A DNA stretch of 64,000 bases, taken from positions 91,678-155,677 of the forward strand of contig JACIWX010000003.1 in NCBI GenBank assembly GCA_014360755.1, written 5' to 3'. Of this stretch, positions 12,780-63,612 are shown one piece after another. Below the pieces are notes generated by a model that saw only the letters and a list, made by a program, of their open reading frames with translations, searched no databases and was not told the origin of the DNA. Origin of the DNA: Chloroflexota bacterium (lineage in GTDB: Bacteria; Chloroflexota; Anaerolineae; UBA2200). The stretch's first letter is position 1; each line of letters begins with the position of its first letter. The position numbers and the translations under genes are program-made.

Positions 12780-12910
12780 GAGAGTGTTGAAAATCTTGTC
12801 GCCCTGAGCGAAGCGAAGGGTCTCGCGTAACTTTAGCAGTATTTTCCCAAGTACTGCGAGATGCTTCACTTCGTTCAGCATGACATTGGAAGGACTTTTT
12901 CAACACCCTC
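12780..12910. mobile_element. MITE-like palindromic element, copy A (131 bp)
   Basis: Ends GAGAGTGTTGAAAA and, inverted, GAGGGTGTTGAAAA. It is flanked by an exact 8-bp direct repeat TATAGTAT (12772-12779 and 12911-12918), as expected of a target-site duplication. Inside are the small palindromes CCCTGAGCGAAGCGAAGGG and GTACTGCGAGATGC. There is no coding capacity. It is the shortest of three family members in the window. Confidence 0.85.
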
Positions 12911-57147: not shown

Positions 57148-58098
57148 ATGGAGCTGGATAAAGTATCTACCGCAATGGAGAAAGTGGGCATTCCAGGCCG
57201 CGATGCCTATGACCTGCCCACGAGCACCAAGCGCTTCCCGGACGGCGCTTGGTACCGCATGGAAGTGTCCGGAGTGGAGCGCCCCCAAGTGCTCGAAGCC
57301 TTGGTGGACGAAGCGGACAAGCGCAAAATGCCCATCCACCGCCTGATTTCCGTGGTGATGGGCGCCACGCTCTTGGATAAGGCTGAATTGCGCGCTTTCG
57401 CCCAAATCGCTGCCGACGCCAAGATGGAAGTCATCCTCACGCCAGGCCCGCGTTCTGCCTGGGACACGGGCAGGCAACTGGTTACGCCAGAAGGCGGGCT
57501 TTCGGGCTTGCGCTTTCGTGGTTCGGATCAACTGCGCGCAGTCATCGCCGACATCATGCGCTGCATAGACCTGGGCTTTCGTGGTTTCCTGGTCATAGAC
57601 GAAGGCTTGCTCTGGCTGCTGAATGAGATGAAGAAGAACGGGGACATCCCGCGCGAGGTGGTCTTCAAGGTCTCTATCTACGCCGGGCACGCCTCGGCTG
57701 CAGGGGGCAAACTCCTGGAGATGCTGGGCGCAAGCACCTTCAACCCACTGGGGGATTTATCTCTGCCGCAGTTGGCGTCCATCCGTCAGGGTTGCAACAT
57801 CCCGTTAGATTTACACATCTACCTGGCGGAGTCTTTTGGTGGCTACAACCGTTTCTACGAAGGTCCGGAGATGGCGCGCCTCTGTGCGCCGTGCTATTTC
57901 AAGATCGAACCTGGGCCAGCCTGCGCCGCAGGGCCTGGGGCGTTGTACAAGCCGTGGACGAGCGTGGATGCCCTTTCTTTCCTGGCGCGCGAGAAGGTCA
58001 AATATGCGCAGATCATCCACGAACTGATCCAGGAGAACTTTCCAGAAGCCAAGATGTCCGGGATTGGCCCGGCAGACCTGGCGGTTCCAAAACCGTGA
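57148..58098 (+). CDS. Unassigned TIM-barrel-like protein
   Basis: 316 residues, soluble. Alternating strands and helices (HRLISVVMGATLLDKAE; KMEVILTPGPRSAWDTG; LGFRGFLVIDEGLLWLL; VFKVSIYAGHASAAGG; PLDLHIYLAESFGGYNRFYE) suggest a beta/alpha barrel. The DLHIY and FGGYNRFYEGPE pieces faintly recall U32-peptidase-like barrels, but I cannot confirm this. Conserved-looking Cys, Asp, Glu and His could bind metal. AAAGGAGG precedes the ATG. It lies between the transaldolase-like gene and the first DapA-Fae fusion and probably shares their pathway. Confidence 0.55.
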   Translation: MELDKVSTAMEKVGIPGRDAYDLPTSTKRFPDGAWYRMEVSGVERPQVLEALVDEADKRKMPIHRLISVVMGATLLDKAELRAFAQIAADAKMEVILTPGPRSAWDTGRQLVTPEGGLSGLRFRGSDQLRAVIADIMRCIDLGFRGFLVIDEGLLWLLNEMKKNGDIPREVVFKVSIYAGHASAAGGKLLEMLGASTFNPLGDLSLPQLASIRQGCNIPLDLHIYLAESFGGYNRFYEGPEMARLCAPCYFKIEPGPACAAGPGALYKPWTSVDALSFLAREKVKYAQIIHELIQENFPEAKMSGIGPADLAVPKP

Positions 58099-58218: not shown

Positions 58219-59649
58219 ATGAAGAACGTCGCGTTCAAACCGCACGGTGTGTTGCCCGCTTTGGTAACACCGTTCACTGCTGATGAGGAAGTGGATGAGG
58301 CGGGACTGCGGGCGTTGGTGCGCTATGTCTTGCCTCACGTGGATGGCGTGGTCCCCTGCGGCACAACGGGCGAGTTCGTCTACCTCACGCCCGATGAGCA
58401 GAGGCGCATTATTGAGATCGTGGTGGATGAGGTTGCCGGGCGTGTGCCGGTAGTTGCCGGTACGGGTGCCGCCTCCACCAAACAAGCAGTGCAGTTGGCG
58501 CGCGCCGCTCAGGAAGCGGGAGCCAGCGCGTGCCTGGTGGTCACGCCGTTTTTCCTCCATCCTTCGGACAAGGGCATTTACCAGCACTTCTATGAAATCG
58601 CCCAGGCTGTGGACTTGCCTATCATCATGTACAACATTCCCCAAGTTGTGGATGCTTATCTTCCGCGTACGGTCATCGAAGACCTGGCTGACATCCCCAA
58701 CATCGTCGCCCTAAAAGATTCTTCGGGCAATCTGACCTATACCATGGAAGTGCTGGAGATGACCAAGGGCAGGCTGGATGTGCTCATCGGGCACGATGAG
58801 GTGGTCTTGCCGGCTTTGGCTGGCGGCTGCAGTGGCATGATCCTCGCTAGTGCGCAGGTCTTTCCGGAAGTATGGCAAAAAGTGTATGCCGCGGTGCAAG
58901 CGGGTGACTTGGAGACGGCGCGGGCGCTGCAGCGTAGTGTGCAGAAGTTAGCGCGCATTTTCTGCCGCCATGGCGGAGGAGTAGCGGTCAAGGCGGCGCT
59001 GAACATGATGGGCATCAAGGTGGGCGGGCCCCGCCGGCCGTTGCTTCGGCAAGGCGGCGTGCTCATCAATGAGGTGCGTGCCGAGATACGCCTGGAGTTG
59101 GAGAAGTTGGGCAAGATCAGCATGCCCCAGGTGGAGATCGAGGCTCCGCGCGAGCCTTTGCCGGAGAGGTTTGCCCATTTGGGGTTGACGGCGGATCTTC
59201 TGCAGTCGAATGGTGTGCGCATGGGCACCGCTGTAGCGGGCGAAGGCGCGGAAAAAGTGCAGATTGACTTGGTGGCAGGACCCAAGAATGGCCCCGTTGG
59301 CGATGCCTATGCGCTACAACTTACCTACCCGCGTCAGGGGCACGAGGCTTTGACCGCTATCCTGGAGCCCAATTTGACAGTGCGACCAGCCACGCTCATC
59401 GTGCCGGTCGTGGAGCTGAAAGATTTGCGCCAGGCGAACATGATTTACGGACCTACGCAATCCGCCGTAGGCAAAGCCATTGCCGATGGCTTGGCTTCCG
59501 GTTTGATACCGGTCTCCGCCATGGCGGAAGAAGTCATGTTGGCGCAAGTTACTGTCCATCCCCAAGCATTGGACCGACATCAACTCTATGGGAATGCTTA
59601 CATGGCTATGGGTGAGGCATTGCAAAACGCATACAATGGAGGACGCTAG
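58219..59649 (+). CDS. DapA-like aldolase fused to a formaldehyde-activating enzyme (Fae) domain, paralogue 1
   Basis: 476 residues from [10 protein letters not shown], with AAAGGAG 8 nt upstream. Residues ~1-300 are a DHDPS/NAL-family barrel: GTTGEFVYL, Tyr138 in IIMYNIPQ, Schiff-base Lys166 in [10 protein letters not shown] linker leads to a Fae domain (~330-476): [73 protein letters not shown]. Fae condenses formaldehyde with tetrahydromethanopterin. The His of the AHIDL motif, the proposed general base (His22 in Methylobacterium), is Gln348 here, so this copy may bind rather than catalyse. This domain pairing is not one I know as described. Confidence 0.85.
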
Positions 59650-59651
59650 AG

Positions 59652-59846
59652 ATGGAGTGCAAACAAGAGCAGAATAAGGTGACTTGCACCTGCACCTATG
59701 AACCATGCCCACGCAAGGGCATCTGTTGTGAATGCATTGCCTACCACCGCCGCTACGGTGAGCTGCCAGGCTGCCTGTTTCCACCGGAAGTGGAGCGCAC
59801 CTACGATCGCTCCATCGCGCGCTTTGTAGCCTGTTATAAGCGCTGA
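59652..59846 (+). CDS. Small Cys-rich protein (DUF6485-like)
   Basis: 64 residues with nine Cys: [22 protein letters not shown] then LPGCLFP, and one near the end. The pattern matches the small DUF6485 family of anaerobes, likely a metal-binding protein. Start ATG is 2 nt after the fusion gene's stop, and GGAGG lies within the end of that gene. It stands between the two DapA-Fae paralogues and is surely co-transcribed with the first. Confidence 0.75.
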
Positions 59847-59907
59847 GCATGTCTTGCTATTTTGTATCGTGGTGCGCTTTTGAGATACCGAAATGCTCAC
59901 TACGAAT

Positions 59908-60096
59908 GAGAGTGTTGAAAGACCCTGTCAGTGTCATGCTGAACCTTCGCCCTGAGCCTTGCCCTGAGCGAAGCGAAGGGGAAGTGAGGCATCTCACAGT
60001 ACTTGGGAAAATACAGCTAAAGTTACGCGAGACCCCTTCGTTGTACTCAGGGCAAGGCTCTTCGCTTGCTCAGGGTGATAAGATTTTCAACACTCT
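59908..60096. mobile_element. MITE-like palindromic element, copy C (189 bp, inverted)
   Basis: Begins GAGAGTGTTGAAAG and ends TTTTCAACACTCT. It is flanked by the exact 8-bp repeat CTACGAAT (59900-59907 and 60097-60104). It lies in the orientation opposite to copies A and B and is longer, through extra CCCTGAGCGAAGCGAAGGG-type palindromes. It separates the Cys-rich gene from the second DapA-Fae gene. Confidence 0.88.
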
Positions 60097-60163
60097 CTAC
60101 GAATCTTTGCAGACATCCTCATCATTGGATTAAAAGGATGTCCTAGCATGAAGGGAGTTGAAG

Positions 60164-61633
60164 ATGAATAAGAAACCAGAATGGTTTAAAGGGATTTTCC
60201 CAGCCTTGGTAACTCCATTTGCAGATGGCAGGGCAATTGATGAAGCCGCGTACCGTTCCTTGATCCGCTTCGTCCTGCCGCACGTGAATGGCGTGGTGCC
60301 GGTGGGCACGACCGGTGAGTTTGTTTATTTGACAGAGGAGGAGAAACGCCGGGCGATTGCCATTGCTCTGGATGAGGTGGCAGGACGCGTCCCAGTAGTT
60401 GCGGGCACGGGCTGTGCCAGCACCCGCGATACGGTCGCTCTGACGCGCTATGCCAAGGACGCGGGAGCACAGGCTGCTCTGGTCGTAGCCCCTTATTACC
60501 TCAAGCCCGCCTACAATGAAATTTACGAGCATTATGAAGCGGTGAGCAAGGTCGGCTTGCCGATTATCCTCTACAATATCCCCCAGTGCGCCGGCACCCA
60601 TTACGAGTGGTGGACGGCAGAGGGGTTAGCCCACCTGGACAATGTCGTTGGCATCAAAGATTCCAGCGGGGACATGCCATTTTTGATGGCTCTGTTCGAG
60701 AAAATCAAAGGGCTGGTGGGCATCTTCTGCGGCCATGATGAGATCATCACCGCCGCCCTGGCGGCAGGAGCAGATGGTGCCATCCTTGCCAGTGCCAATC
60801 TCATCCCCGATGTCTGGCAGCAGATTTATGCTGCCGTGCGCAACGGCGACTTGGCGCAGGCGCAGGCTTTACAGGCAAAGATCCAGATATTGGTGCGCCT
60901 CATCACCCGGCAAGGTTCTGTGCAGGCGGTCAAGGAGGGGCTGCAGATGATGGGGCTCCCGGTGGGCAATGCGCGGCTGCCGATGATGCCTGGCGATGCC
61001 TTTCGCCGTGAAGACCGCGAAGACCTGCGCTGGCAACTGGAGAAGTTAGGCAAGATCCCCCTGCGGGCAATAGAATATGAGTTGTGCGGCAAGACGGTGC
61101 GCACAACCGTTCCGGCTACGCCCCAAACGCCACGCCGGGTCAGTGGTTTTGCGCTGAAGATCGGCGAGGGGTTCGCTGGGCCGCCCTTCTTTGAACTGGC
61201 GCACATTGACTTGCTATTGGGAGAGCGCGGCGGGCCTGTGGACAAAGCCATTGCGCAGGCGCTTACAGTGCCCCATCCAGGCCATGAAGTACGCCTTGTC
61301 TACGAGCGCCCGCGTACGCTGCTTGTGCCGACCGTTACTCTGCGCACGGACAAACAAGCAGAGCATGTTTATACCTGGGCTACCAACGGGGTTGTGCAAG
61401 CGATCGAGGCGAGTATCACAGATGGCTTTCTACCTCGGGAGGCGCTAGATGATCTAGTCATGATTGCCAACGTGTTTGTCCACCCCGCGGCAGCCAACCG
61501 CAGACGCATCGAGGTGAACAACTACAAGGCAATGCGCGCCGCTATCCGCAAAGCCATCGAAGGCCGTCCAACCTTGGAAGAACTTTTGTACGAAAAGCAA
61601 GCAGCACGCCATCCGTTCCGGTATGCGCCGTAA
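60164..61633 (+). CDS. DapA-like aldolase fused to a Fae domain, paralogue 2
   Basis: 489 residues from MNKKPEWFKG, with GGGAG 6 nt upstream. DapA-type barrel ~1-300: [11 protein letters not shown], Tyr137 in IILYNIPQ, Schiff-base Lys165 in VGIKDSSGD. Fae domain ~325-480: FELAHIDLLLGERGGPVDKAIAQAL in parts, LVPTVTLRT, DDLVMIANVFVHPAAANRRRIEVNNYKAMRAAIRKAIEG and ending ARHPFRYAP, where known Fae proteins end in a HPF motif. The catalytic His is kept (His347). The usual second-strand AVLEPNLP is replaced by LVYERPRTL. It could capture an aldehyde released by its own barrel. It converges on the AOR gene. Confidence 0.86.
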   Translation: MNKKPEWFKGIFPALVTPFADGRAIDEAAYRSLIRFVLPHVNGVVPVGTTGEFVYLTEEEKRRAIAIALDEVAGRVPVVAGTGCASTRDTVALTRYAKDAGAQAALVVAPYYLKPAYNEIYEHYEAVSKVGLPIILYNIPQCAGTHYEWWTAEGLAHLDNVVGIKDSSGDMPFLMALFEKIKGLVGIFCGHDEIITAALAAGADGAILASANLIPDVWQQIYAAVRNGDLAQAQALQAKIQILVRLITRQGSVQAVKEGLQMMGLPVGNARLPMMPGDAFRREDREDLRWQLEKLGKIPLRAIEYELCGKTVRTTVPATPQTPRRVSGFALKIGEGFAGPPFFELAHIDLLLGERGGPVDKAIAQALTVPHPGHEVRLVYERPRTLLVPTVTLRTDKQAEHVYTWATNGVVQAIEASITDGFLPREALDDLVMIANVFVHPAAANRRRIEVNNYKAMRAAIRKAIEGRPTLEELLYEKQAARHPFRYAP

Positions 61634-61650: not shown

Positions 61651-63612
61651 CTAGCGATGTGCGTGCAGCAAGGCTTCCAGGCCTAGTATCTGAACCGTTT
61701 CAGGCGAGGGCCAGCCCGTAGCAGGGTCAATGCCCATGACGGAAAAGTAGCCTGTGGACATTGCGCCCGTGTCCAGCGTTATACCTGCCAAGGGTCCCGC
61801 TTCCAGAGGAGGGTCGCCGCGCTCGCGGGCAGGCAGCTTGACTTGCTCTGGTGTGATGCCTTCACGGGCATTAAAGGCGTGGCGCAGGGCTTGGATGCGC
61901 CATCCTAAGCGCAGAAAATCCGCTTCACTTACTTCCCAGCCTGTCGCAGCCTGCAGCCAATCCAGGATAGGCGGTTCACCCATCAACAGGCTGAATTGGC
62001 ACATGCCCAAGGAATCAAAAGCACGCAGCACTTGCATAACCACAGCCATTTCCGCGCCTTTGGCGGAATAATCATAGCGCGCTGCTAACTGACGCCCACT
62101 CCGCTTGAGATAGCGGATCATAGTAGGATTGGCAGTCATCCCGCTGAGTGTAGCGGTGTGGCGGCCCGGTGCCGGGTCCAGCCAATAGCCGACAGCCACG
62201 CCAGGTTCGTAAAGTCCGCGATGCATGGGCAGTTCCTGGCCCCCAGCGTGTACAGCGGCTTCTTGGGCAGCAGGGCTTGCACGTGAAGCGGCGTGCCGTA
62301 TGCCATCTGCCAGCCATTCCCCCAGACCGGGCTGACGGGCAGCGATACGTTTAGTCAGTTCTACGATTGCCTGGCTATCTCCCCAGTGAAGGGGGAGTTC
62401 ACCCGCGAGTTCGGGAGGCAACCAGCCACGTTCAGAACACTCAATGGCAAAAGCCACGGCCACGCCGGTGGAGATGGTATCCAGCCCCGCCAGGTTACAG
62501 ATCTCATTGCATGCCACGACTGTATCCAGGTCGGCATTCAGCAGCAGGGGGCCAAAAGCAGCCAATGTCTCGTATTCAGGGCGATGGCCGGTGCCGCCAT
62601 TGGGCAGTCGGATGGTCGCTCCACAGGCCAGTGGGCAACTGTGGCAGGCGTATGGTTTGATTTTGTTACGGATCACTGCCTCATCGCTGAGGTTTTCAGC
62701 CATGCTGACTGGGTAGTCTCGCACACTTGTGCCCGTCCAATTACGTATGGGCGTGTCATCCAGAGCCACCAGCAAGGCAGTCGCTGATGCAGTCCCGTAG
62801 AGGCGGTAGTTGTCCATGATCATCTGCAACGGGCCACTGGTGGGTTTGAAGCGGAGGCGGCGCAAAAAGGGAGCAAATGCATGGAGAAACTTGGGCATCA
62901 AGGGCATCCAGCGGGCGGGTTGGCGACGGAAAAGTTGGCGGTAGCCTTTTGTACTTTGGTCAAAGGCTTCCTTGTCAGCCAGGGGCGGCGATGCTCTGCC
63001 TCGCGCCGCGATTGCTTTGAGATTTTTGGAGCCCATCACGGCACCTAGACCGCAGCGCGCCGCAATACGGCCGCCTTCGTTGACGATGCCGGAGATGAGG
63101 GAGCGCTTTTCCCCGGCAGGCCCGATGCAAGCGACCTGCACATCTGATGAAGTAGCCTGGCGGATGGCTTCTTCCGTTGCGACCGTATCTAGCCCCCATA
63201 ATGTTGTAGCATCGCGCAGTTCAGCGTGTTGATCGTCCACATAAAGATAAACGGGTTTTGGCGCGATGCCATAGACAAATATGCCATCATAGCCCGCTCC
63301 ACGCAGGGCAGGGCCAAATCTGCCCCCACCGTTTGCCTCTCCCCAGCCGCCGGTGAGCGGTGACTTGGCTACAACCATAAAGCGGCCGCTGAAAGGCGCA
63401 TGAGTGCCTGTGAGCAAGCCTGGCAGGAATCCCAACATATTGTCTGGACCAAGGGGGTCAGTGCCAGGTGGGATATGTTCATAAAGCATGCGCACGCCCA
63501 GCCCGTACCCTCCCAGGTACTGGCGGTAGACCTCATCTGGCAAGGTTTGCTCCTCAATATGGCCTGTGGACAGATTGACAAATAGCACCCTTCCCCAATA
63601 TCCGTTTGGCAT
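61651..63612 (-). CDS. Aldehyde:ferredoxin oxidoreductase (tungsten/molybdopterin type)
   Basis: 653 residues, slightly over the family's ~610. N-terminal AOR domain: GRVLFVNLSTGHIE, LGGYGLGVRMLYEHIPPGTDPLGPDN, SPLTGGWGEANGGGRFGPALRGAGYDGIFVYG in parts. 4Fe-4S ligands: CHSCPLAC (~residues 318-325) plus the Cys of DSLGMCQFSLLMG near the C-terminus. The family oxidises aldehydes to acids with a bis-pterin tungsten cofactor, passing electrons to ferredoxin; strictly anaerobic. GAGGAG lies 6 nt before the ATG. It lies 22 nt downstream of a class II aldolase gene, so the aldolase product may be its substrate. Confidence 0.94.
   Translation of the reverse strand: MPNGYWGRVLFVNLSTGHIEEQTLPDEVYRQYLGGYGLGVRMLYEHIPPGTDPLGPDNMLGFLPGLLTGTHAPFSGRFMVVAKSPLTGGWGEANGGGRFGPALRGAGYDGIFVYGIAPKPVYLYVDDQHAELRDATTLWGLDTVATEEAIRQATSSDVQVACIGPAGEKRSLISGIVNEGGRIAARCGLGAVMGSKNLKAIAARGRASPPLADKEAFDQSTKGYRQLFRRQPARWMPLMPKFLHAFAPFLRRLRFKPTSGPLQMIMDNYRLYGTASATALLVALDDTPIRNWTGTSVRDYPVSMAENLSDEAVIRNKIKPYACHSCPLACGATIRLPNGGTGHRPEYETLAAFGPLLLNADLDTVVACNEICNLAGLDTISTGVAVAFAIECSERGWLPPELAGELPLHWGDSQAIVELTKRIAARQPGLGEWLADGIRHAASRASPAAQEAAVHAGGQELPMHRGLYEPGVAVGYWLDPAPGRHTATLSGMTANPTMIRYLKRSGRQLAARYDYSAKGAEMAVVMQVLRAFDSLGMCQFSLLMGEPPILDWLQAATGWEVSEADFLRLGWRIQALRHAFNAREGITPEQVKLPARERGDPPLEAGPLAGITLDTGAMSTGYFSVMGIDPATGWPSPETVQILGLEALLHAHR

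Follow-up and report, generated by a model that had tools for sequence, protein, structure and literature searches.

Two adjacent DHDPS/NAL-type aldolases fused to Fae-type domains in Anaerolineae and archaea: a candidate hetero-oligomeric aldolase with a composite aldehyde site

The formaldehyde-activating enzyme Fae is regarded as a tetrahydromethanopterin (H4MPT) enzyme, and what two Fae-type domains, each joined to an aldolase, might do in a bacterium without marker genes for this cofactor is the question raised by a 64,000-nucleotide stretch of DNA (the window) from a Chloroflexota bacterium of the Anaerolineae (contig JACIWX010000003.1, positions 91,678 to 155,677). Two genes on its forward strand, copy A (58219-59649; 476 residues from ATG) and copy B (60164-61633; 489 residues from ATG), each encode a class I pyruvate-aldolase-type barrel (residues ~1-300 in A, ~1-298 in B) followed by a Fae-type domain (334-473 and 332-485). 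An earlier note, made from the sequence alone, had read them as DapA-family aldolases fused to Fae, and the fusion of a DHDPS/NAL-type barrel with Fae is genuine in both copies. We tentatively favour the view that A and B are subunits of one hetero-oligomeric class I aldolase with a composite Fae-type aldehyde site, for which formaldehyde would be the simplest candidate.

Pfam places PF00701 at residues 8-277 of A (E 7.6e-74) and 8-279 of B (E 1.5e-74), and PF08714, the Fae family that the note had expected in the C-terminal regions, at residues 336-473 of A (E 4.9e-38) and 333-485 of B (E 7.1e-37); no other Pfam domain exceeded its cut-off in either protein. The NCBIfam model TIGR03126 (one_C_fae) scored 130.1 bits with A and 143.6 bits with B (curated cut-off 118.05), and in phmmer searches the solved structure closest to the C-terminal parts was M. 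extorquens Fae (1y5y; E 1e-21 and 1e-22). Both copies thus show the significant full-domain homology that defines the Fae family, extending over ~140-155 residues at 32-34% identity to M. extorquens Fae (1y5y/1y60), and the genome of the window (2.98 Mb, 94% complete) contains no Fae other than these two. An AlphaFold2 model of B, computed with 20 relatives, reached a pLDDT of 89.2 and a pTM of 0.88, and its barrel superposes on NAL and DHDPS structures (TMt 0.9); a structure search with the whole model returned barrel matches only, the Fae half not having been searched separately by fold.

The join is no assembly artefact, an outcome that would have overturned the fusion, because the same architecture recurs in archaeal chromosomes and, in a sample of 396 genomes from the class, in 40. 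A Fae match was present in 43 of these 396 genomes and both fused copies in 37; of the other six genomes, three had a single fused copy, two had a canonical Fae that stands alone and one had a weak fragment. A second sample took in the window's genome and its relatives, 60 genomes in all; 19 of them carried Fae, almost always in two copies and, contig permitting, in fused frames of ~500 residues. A scan of named GTDB genomes yielded 29 loci in Chloroflexota (Anaerolineae, Thermoflexia and Ardenticatenales), in three Thermoplasmatota archaea and on one contig labelled Proteobacteria. Exactly two Fae were found in all seven named hosts examined, among them two of the three Thermoplasmatota, whose genomes are single chromosomes with the two Fae adjacent. 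Wherever both copies share one strand of the fetched locus A precedes B, and the spacing between them is often 0-20 nt or the genes overlap.

That A and B are paralogues, as the note had stated, is supported by both phylogenetic trees. In the Fae-domain tree, the 39 rows of A and the 30 rows of B each form one clade (support 100/96 and 100/98) and together stand apart from five canonical Fae (100/94); in a smaller tree of barrels, which also included five paralogues from the window's genome that stand alone and three solved DHDPS, they form two clades that group together and apart from these (92/94). Branches are long in both trees. Since the Fae domains fall into separate A and B clades and the barrels are nearest each other, the simplest history is probably one fusion followed by an old duplication, before the pair spread among bacteria and archaea.

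The two Fae-type domains have kept different parts of the family's sequence. The domain of A (59218-59637, forward strand) has a conserved middle segment with GPTQ (Gln414), carries Gln348 at the position of the Fae histidine and is without the C-terminal HPF tail, whereas that of B (61157-61618, forward strand) has conserved EGFAGPPxxELAHIDL (His347, Asp349) and NNYKA...ARHPFRYAP motifs, carries FVHPAA and has lost GPxQ together with the five-residue loop before it. The earlier description of a Fae motif set in each protein stands as regards the domain, but A and B do not carry equivalent sets. Over 23 loci that have the two genes, A showed 3, 29 and 5 invariant columns in its N-terminal, middle and C-terminal Fae segments and B showed 17, 8 and 29, a contrast with a naive chi-square p of 1e-8 that is indicative only, the sequences being related. 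The His and the Asp of AHIDL are each present in 30 of 30 B sequences and the HPF tail is kept, the N- and C-terminal segments of B being nearly frozen from bacteria to archaea; in A, the Gln of GPxQ and the five-residue loop are each present in 39 of 39 sequences, and Gln occupies the histidine position in 30 of 39. Of the canonical residues of M. extorquens Fae, which we take to be His17, Asp19, Leu48, Lys66, Thr68 and Gln83, A keeps Gln83 and has mostly Gln for His17, Thr for Leu48, Thr or Val for Lys66 and Glu or Pro for Thr68, while B keeps the His, the Asp and Thr68 and has Thr for Lys66, Ala for Gln83 and, in the family alignment, mostly Arg or Lys for Leu48, so that neither chain holds the complete set. 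The canonical Asn-Lys pair is lost in both domains and is now Pro-Thr or Pro-Val. M. extorquens Fae presumably binds its ligand between neighbouring subunits, in which case a composite A-B site would be expected to leave just this pattern; such a site is the simplest reading of the reciprocal conservation, one that we infer from the alignments.

The barrels appear equipped for catalysis in both copies. Their Schiff-base residues, Lys166 and Tyr138 in A, Lys165 and Tyr137 in B, and the Thr-Thr pair, are invariant (in A, Tyr138, Lys166 and Thr49-Thr50 throughout the 39 sequences), and with the G-T-T-G-E motif they bear out the note's complete Schiff-base aldolase barrel; because of these residues, each barrel would be predicted to bind pyruvate, or some other 2-oxo-acid, as a Schiff base. 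As in other members of the PF00701 superfamily the barrel is of full length with invariant Lys, Tyr and GTTGE, the best structural matches being NAL, DHDPS and the unassigned 3na8, but A and B differ from these in having YNIPQ instead of YNVPGRT, a GHDE loop and the C-terminal Fae domain, and form a subfamily of their own.

We propose that A and B would co-assemble as the two subunits of one Schiff-base, pyruvate-type aldolase, in which both barrels would form or cleave the bond between a 2-oxo-acid and an aldehyde, and the paired Fae domains would build a small-aldehyde site, in which the middle part with the Gln would come from A and the rest, with the His/Asp and the C-terminal part, from B. 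The aldehyde, which might pass between the domains, would most simply be formaldehyde, and the reaction pyruvate + formaldehyde <-> 4-hydroxy-2-oxobutanoate or a close relative; a carrier, if there is any, would be one other than H4MPT. The note had treated A and B as two self-contained bifunctional enzymes, whereas the conservation of A and B as a pair, with different Fae segments retained in each, points to one hetero-complex. Formaldehyde is favoured because Fae chemistry uses it, because a Fae domain on an aldolase has a precedent in Fae-HPS, and because aldol chemistry between pyruvate and formaldehyde is already known.

RhmA, the enzyme of that chemistry, is a metal-dependent class II pyruvate aldolase unrelated to PF00701. 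It has no Fae domain, and its likeness to A and B lies in the kind of reaction proposed for them: as the promiscuous 4-hydroxy-2-oxobutanoate aldolase of the engineered homoserine cycle, RhmA carries out the aldol reaction of pyruvate with formaldehyde (PMC8879981). The archaeal Fae-HPS (NF009833; for example Mhun1628 of M. hungatei) also joins Fae and a barrel aldolase in one chain, and its Fae has been proposed to capture the formaldehyde released by the fused aldolase (PMC5241800), an analogy that supports the aldehyde-handling role suggested by the earlier note. In A and B, however, the barrel is a Schiff-base DHDPS/NAL and not a hexulose-6-phosphate synthase, Fae is C-terminal and not N-terminal, and there are two diverged copies in hosts without H4MPT markers; NF009833 matched both proteins through the Fae part only, far under its cut-off, and neither contains a hexulose-6-phosphate synthase domain.

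Several observations weigh against the hetero-oligomeric aldolase with a composite site and keep our preference for it tentative. Canonical Fae is a homopentamer, and strict alternation of A and B is impossible in a pentamer. The p-values make the reciprocal conservation look stronger than it is, since neither the columns nor the sequences are independent, and four A sequences, two of them archaeal, retain the Fae histidine. With Asn-Lys lost from both domains the formaldehyde chemistry may be gone, and no formaldehyde-producing gene was found as a consistent neighbour of the pair.

The main rival, which we consider possible if somewhat less probable, is that the Fae domains are chemically dead and join two different 2-oxo-acid aldolases as a module for hetero-oligomerisation or regulation; the barrels alone would then be the enzymes, with sugar acids or other 2-oxo-acids rather than one-carbon (C1) compounds as their substrates. 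It would agree with the loss of Asn-Lys from both domains, of the His from most A sequences and of GPxQ from B, and equally with the lack of H4MPT marker genes and of consistent C1 genes nearby; the unbroken retention of His and Asp in B and its near-frozen N- and C-terminal segments, however, exceed what an oligomerisation surface would appear to need.

Folate C1 metabolism is near-universal and Fae is by descent a pterin-binding domain. A composite Fae site might work with another C1 carrier such as tetrahydrofolate, in a folate-linked hydroxymethyl transfer to pyruvate with an outcome like that of PanB on ketoisovalerate; the His/Asp part of the site kept in B is consistent with this, but residues that presumably line the pterin pocket are altered in both copies, and we regard it as unlikely.

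Less likely still is a model along the lines of the earlier note, in which each fusion is self-contained and formaldehyde freed by the barrel is loaded onto H4MPT by the Fae domain of the same chain. The domain content and the Fae-HPS precedent speak for it, as does the presence of MCH in a few hosts, yet neither domain has the full canonical residue set and the expected co-occurrence with H4MPT genes is not seen. The genome of the window has neither MCH nor beta-RFAP synthase, the latter a marker of methanopterin synthesis, and on this ground we reject H4MPT as the carrier there. Of 41 genomes examined, MCH was found in 2 of the 14 that bear the pair and in 3 of the other 27. Three named hosts out of 12 have it, two of the three being assemblies already counted, and none of the three archaeal hosts does; beta-RFAP synthase above cut-off was found in none of the 19 pair-bearing relatives and none of eight named hosts, while the three relatives that do carry it (G429, G430 and G431) have no Fae. 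The H4MPT C1 pathway that goes with the Fae family is thus not found in these hosts, and because MCH is rare and beta-RFAP synthase absent above cut-off among them, H4MPT is probably not the carrier in general. Three genomes (G404, G410 and G453) have MCH without a beta-RFAP synthase above cut-off.

That A or B, or both, is the genome's lysine-pathway DapA is scarcely credible, even though the two copies exceed the cut-off of the NCBIfam equivalog TIGR00674 (228.8 and 213.6 bits; cut-off 206.15), since both have YNIPQ in place of YNVPGRT, the motif whose Arg binds aspartate semialdehyde in DHDPS, and since no dapB (TIGR00036) scored above cut-off in the window's genome or in any of 20 relatives. 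In these 21 genomes lysine is seemingly made by another route or obtained, and the window's genome has several DHDPS-family genes. One of them, a stand-alone paralogue without a Fae domain (L099, G000:C1:400318-401184), shares YNIPQ with A and B and sits on a long tree branch.

Upstream of A lies its partner gene F1 (57148-58098, forward strand), encoding a 316-residue protein that matched no Pfam or NCBIfam family at E<=0.1 and is predicted to form a TIM barrel (model pLDDT 78). F1 often stands immediately 5' of A, adjoins it in both complete archaeal chromosomes, and has a close copy in 17 of 19 pair-bearing and 5 of 41 other genomes (Fisher p 9e-9, uncorrected for kinship); as it also occurs in some genomes without the pair, it is not strictly dependent on it. 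The F1 of the window is 66-87% identical to its archaeal and bacterial relatives, the mean column identity between bacteria and archaea being 85%, and the class also contains a further set of paralogues, more distant at 37-44% identity. One F1 relative grazes Peptidase_U32 at E 0.033, profile matches in the PDB are short and unconvincing, and a structure search ranked many unrelated TIM barrels level, at Z near 14, so that F1 is known by its fold only.

A Cys-rich open reading frame of 64 residues (59652-59846, forward strand; DUF6485, PF20095, E 3.3e-8, 34.3 bits, cut-off 24) starts 2 nt past the stop codon of A. DUF6485 directly follows A in ten further loci (L015, L016, L018, L019, L020, L025, L037, L108, L109 and L110); this arrangement is kept across several families, and in G422 (L073) the gene lies near an F1 gene without A or B. 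A miniature inverted-repeat transposable element (MITE)-like element at 59908-60097, whose 13-bp terminal inverted repeats (GAGAGTGTTGAAA) are perfect and which encloses another inverted repeat of 28 bp, would explain the long gap between A and B in the window; its repeat end has single matches also at 12782 and 30124. Convergent with B is an aldehyde:ferredoxin oxidoreductase gene (61651-63612, reverse strand), a family with a member downstream of B also in L042 and not in most loci. The other neighbours (a sugar-isomerase-like barrel, an FAD oxidase, enolase-superfamily, MttB-like and CBS proteins) vary by locus, and beyond F1 and DUF6485 the neighbourhood therefore names no substrate. A promoter scan gave nothing exceeding chance, and no Rfam family was matched.

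Both parts of A and B belong to known families, but a DHDPS-Fae fusion has not been described in the literature searched, which leaves out most subscription papers; the note had likewise known of none. To the extent that this could be checked, no earlier description exists of the architecture, of paired copies with reciprocal conservation or of their occurrence in hosts without H4MPT markers. An enzyme that joins pyruvate and formaldehyde, or cleaves 4-hydroxy-2-oxobutanoate, independently of H4MPT, as an A-B hetero-complex with a shared aldehyde-activating site, is in this full form a long shot; if true, it would be a native counterpart, in Chloroflexota and archaea, of the key step in the engineered homoserine cycle. 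Matches to 'Fae' or 'dapA' in Anaerolineae should not be taken to indicate formaldehyde oxidation through H4MPT or the synthesis of lysine. In some archaea and a set of Anaerolineae, most of them uncultured, two Fae-type domains split over two putative aldolase subunits are retained without the marker genes of H4MPT, which suggests that Fae domains have a second role or else that an aldolase exists which handles formaldehyde independently of this cofactor.

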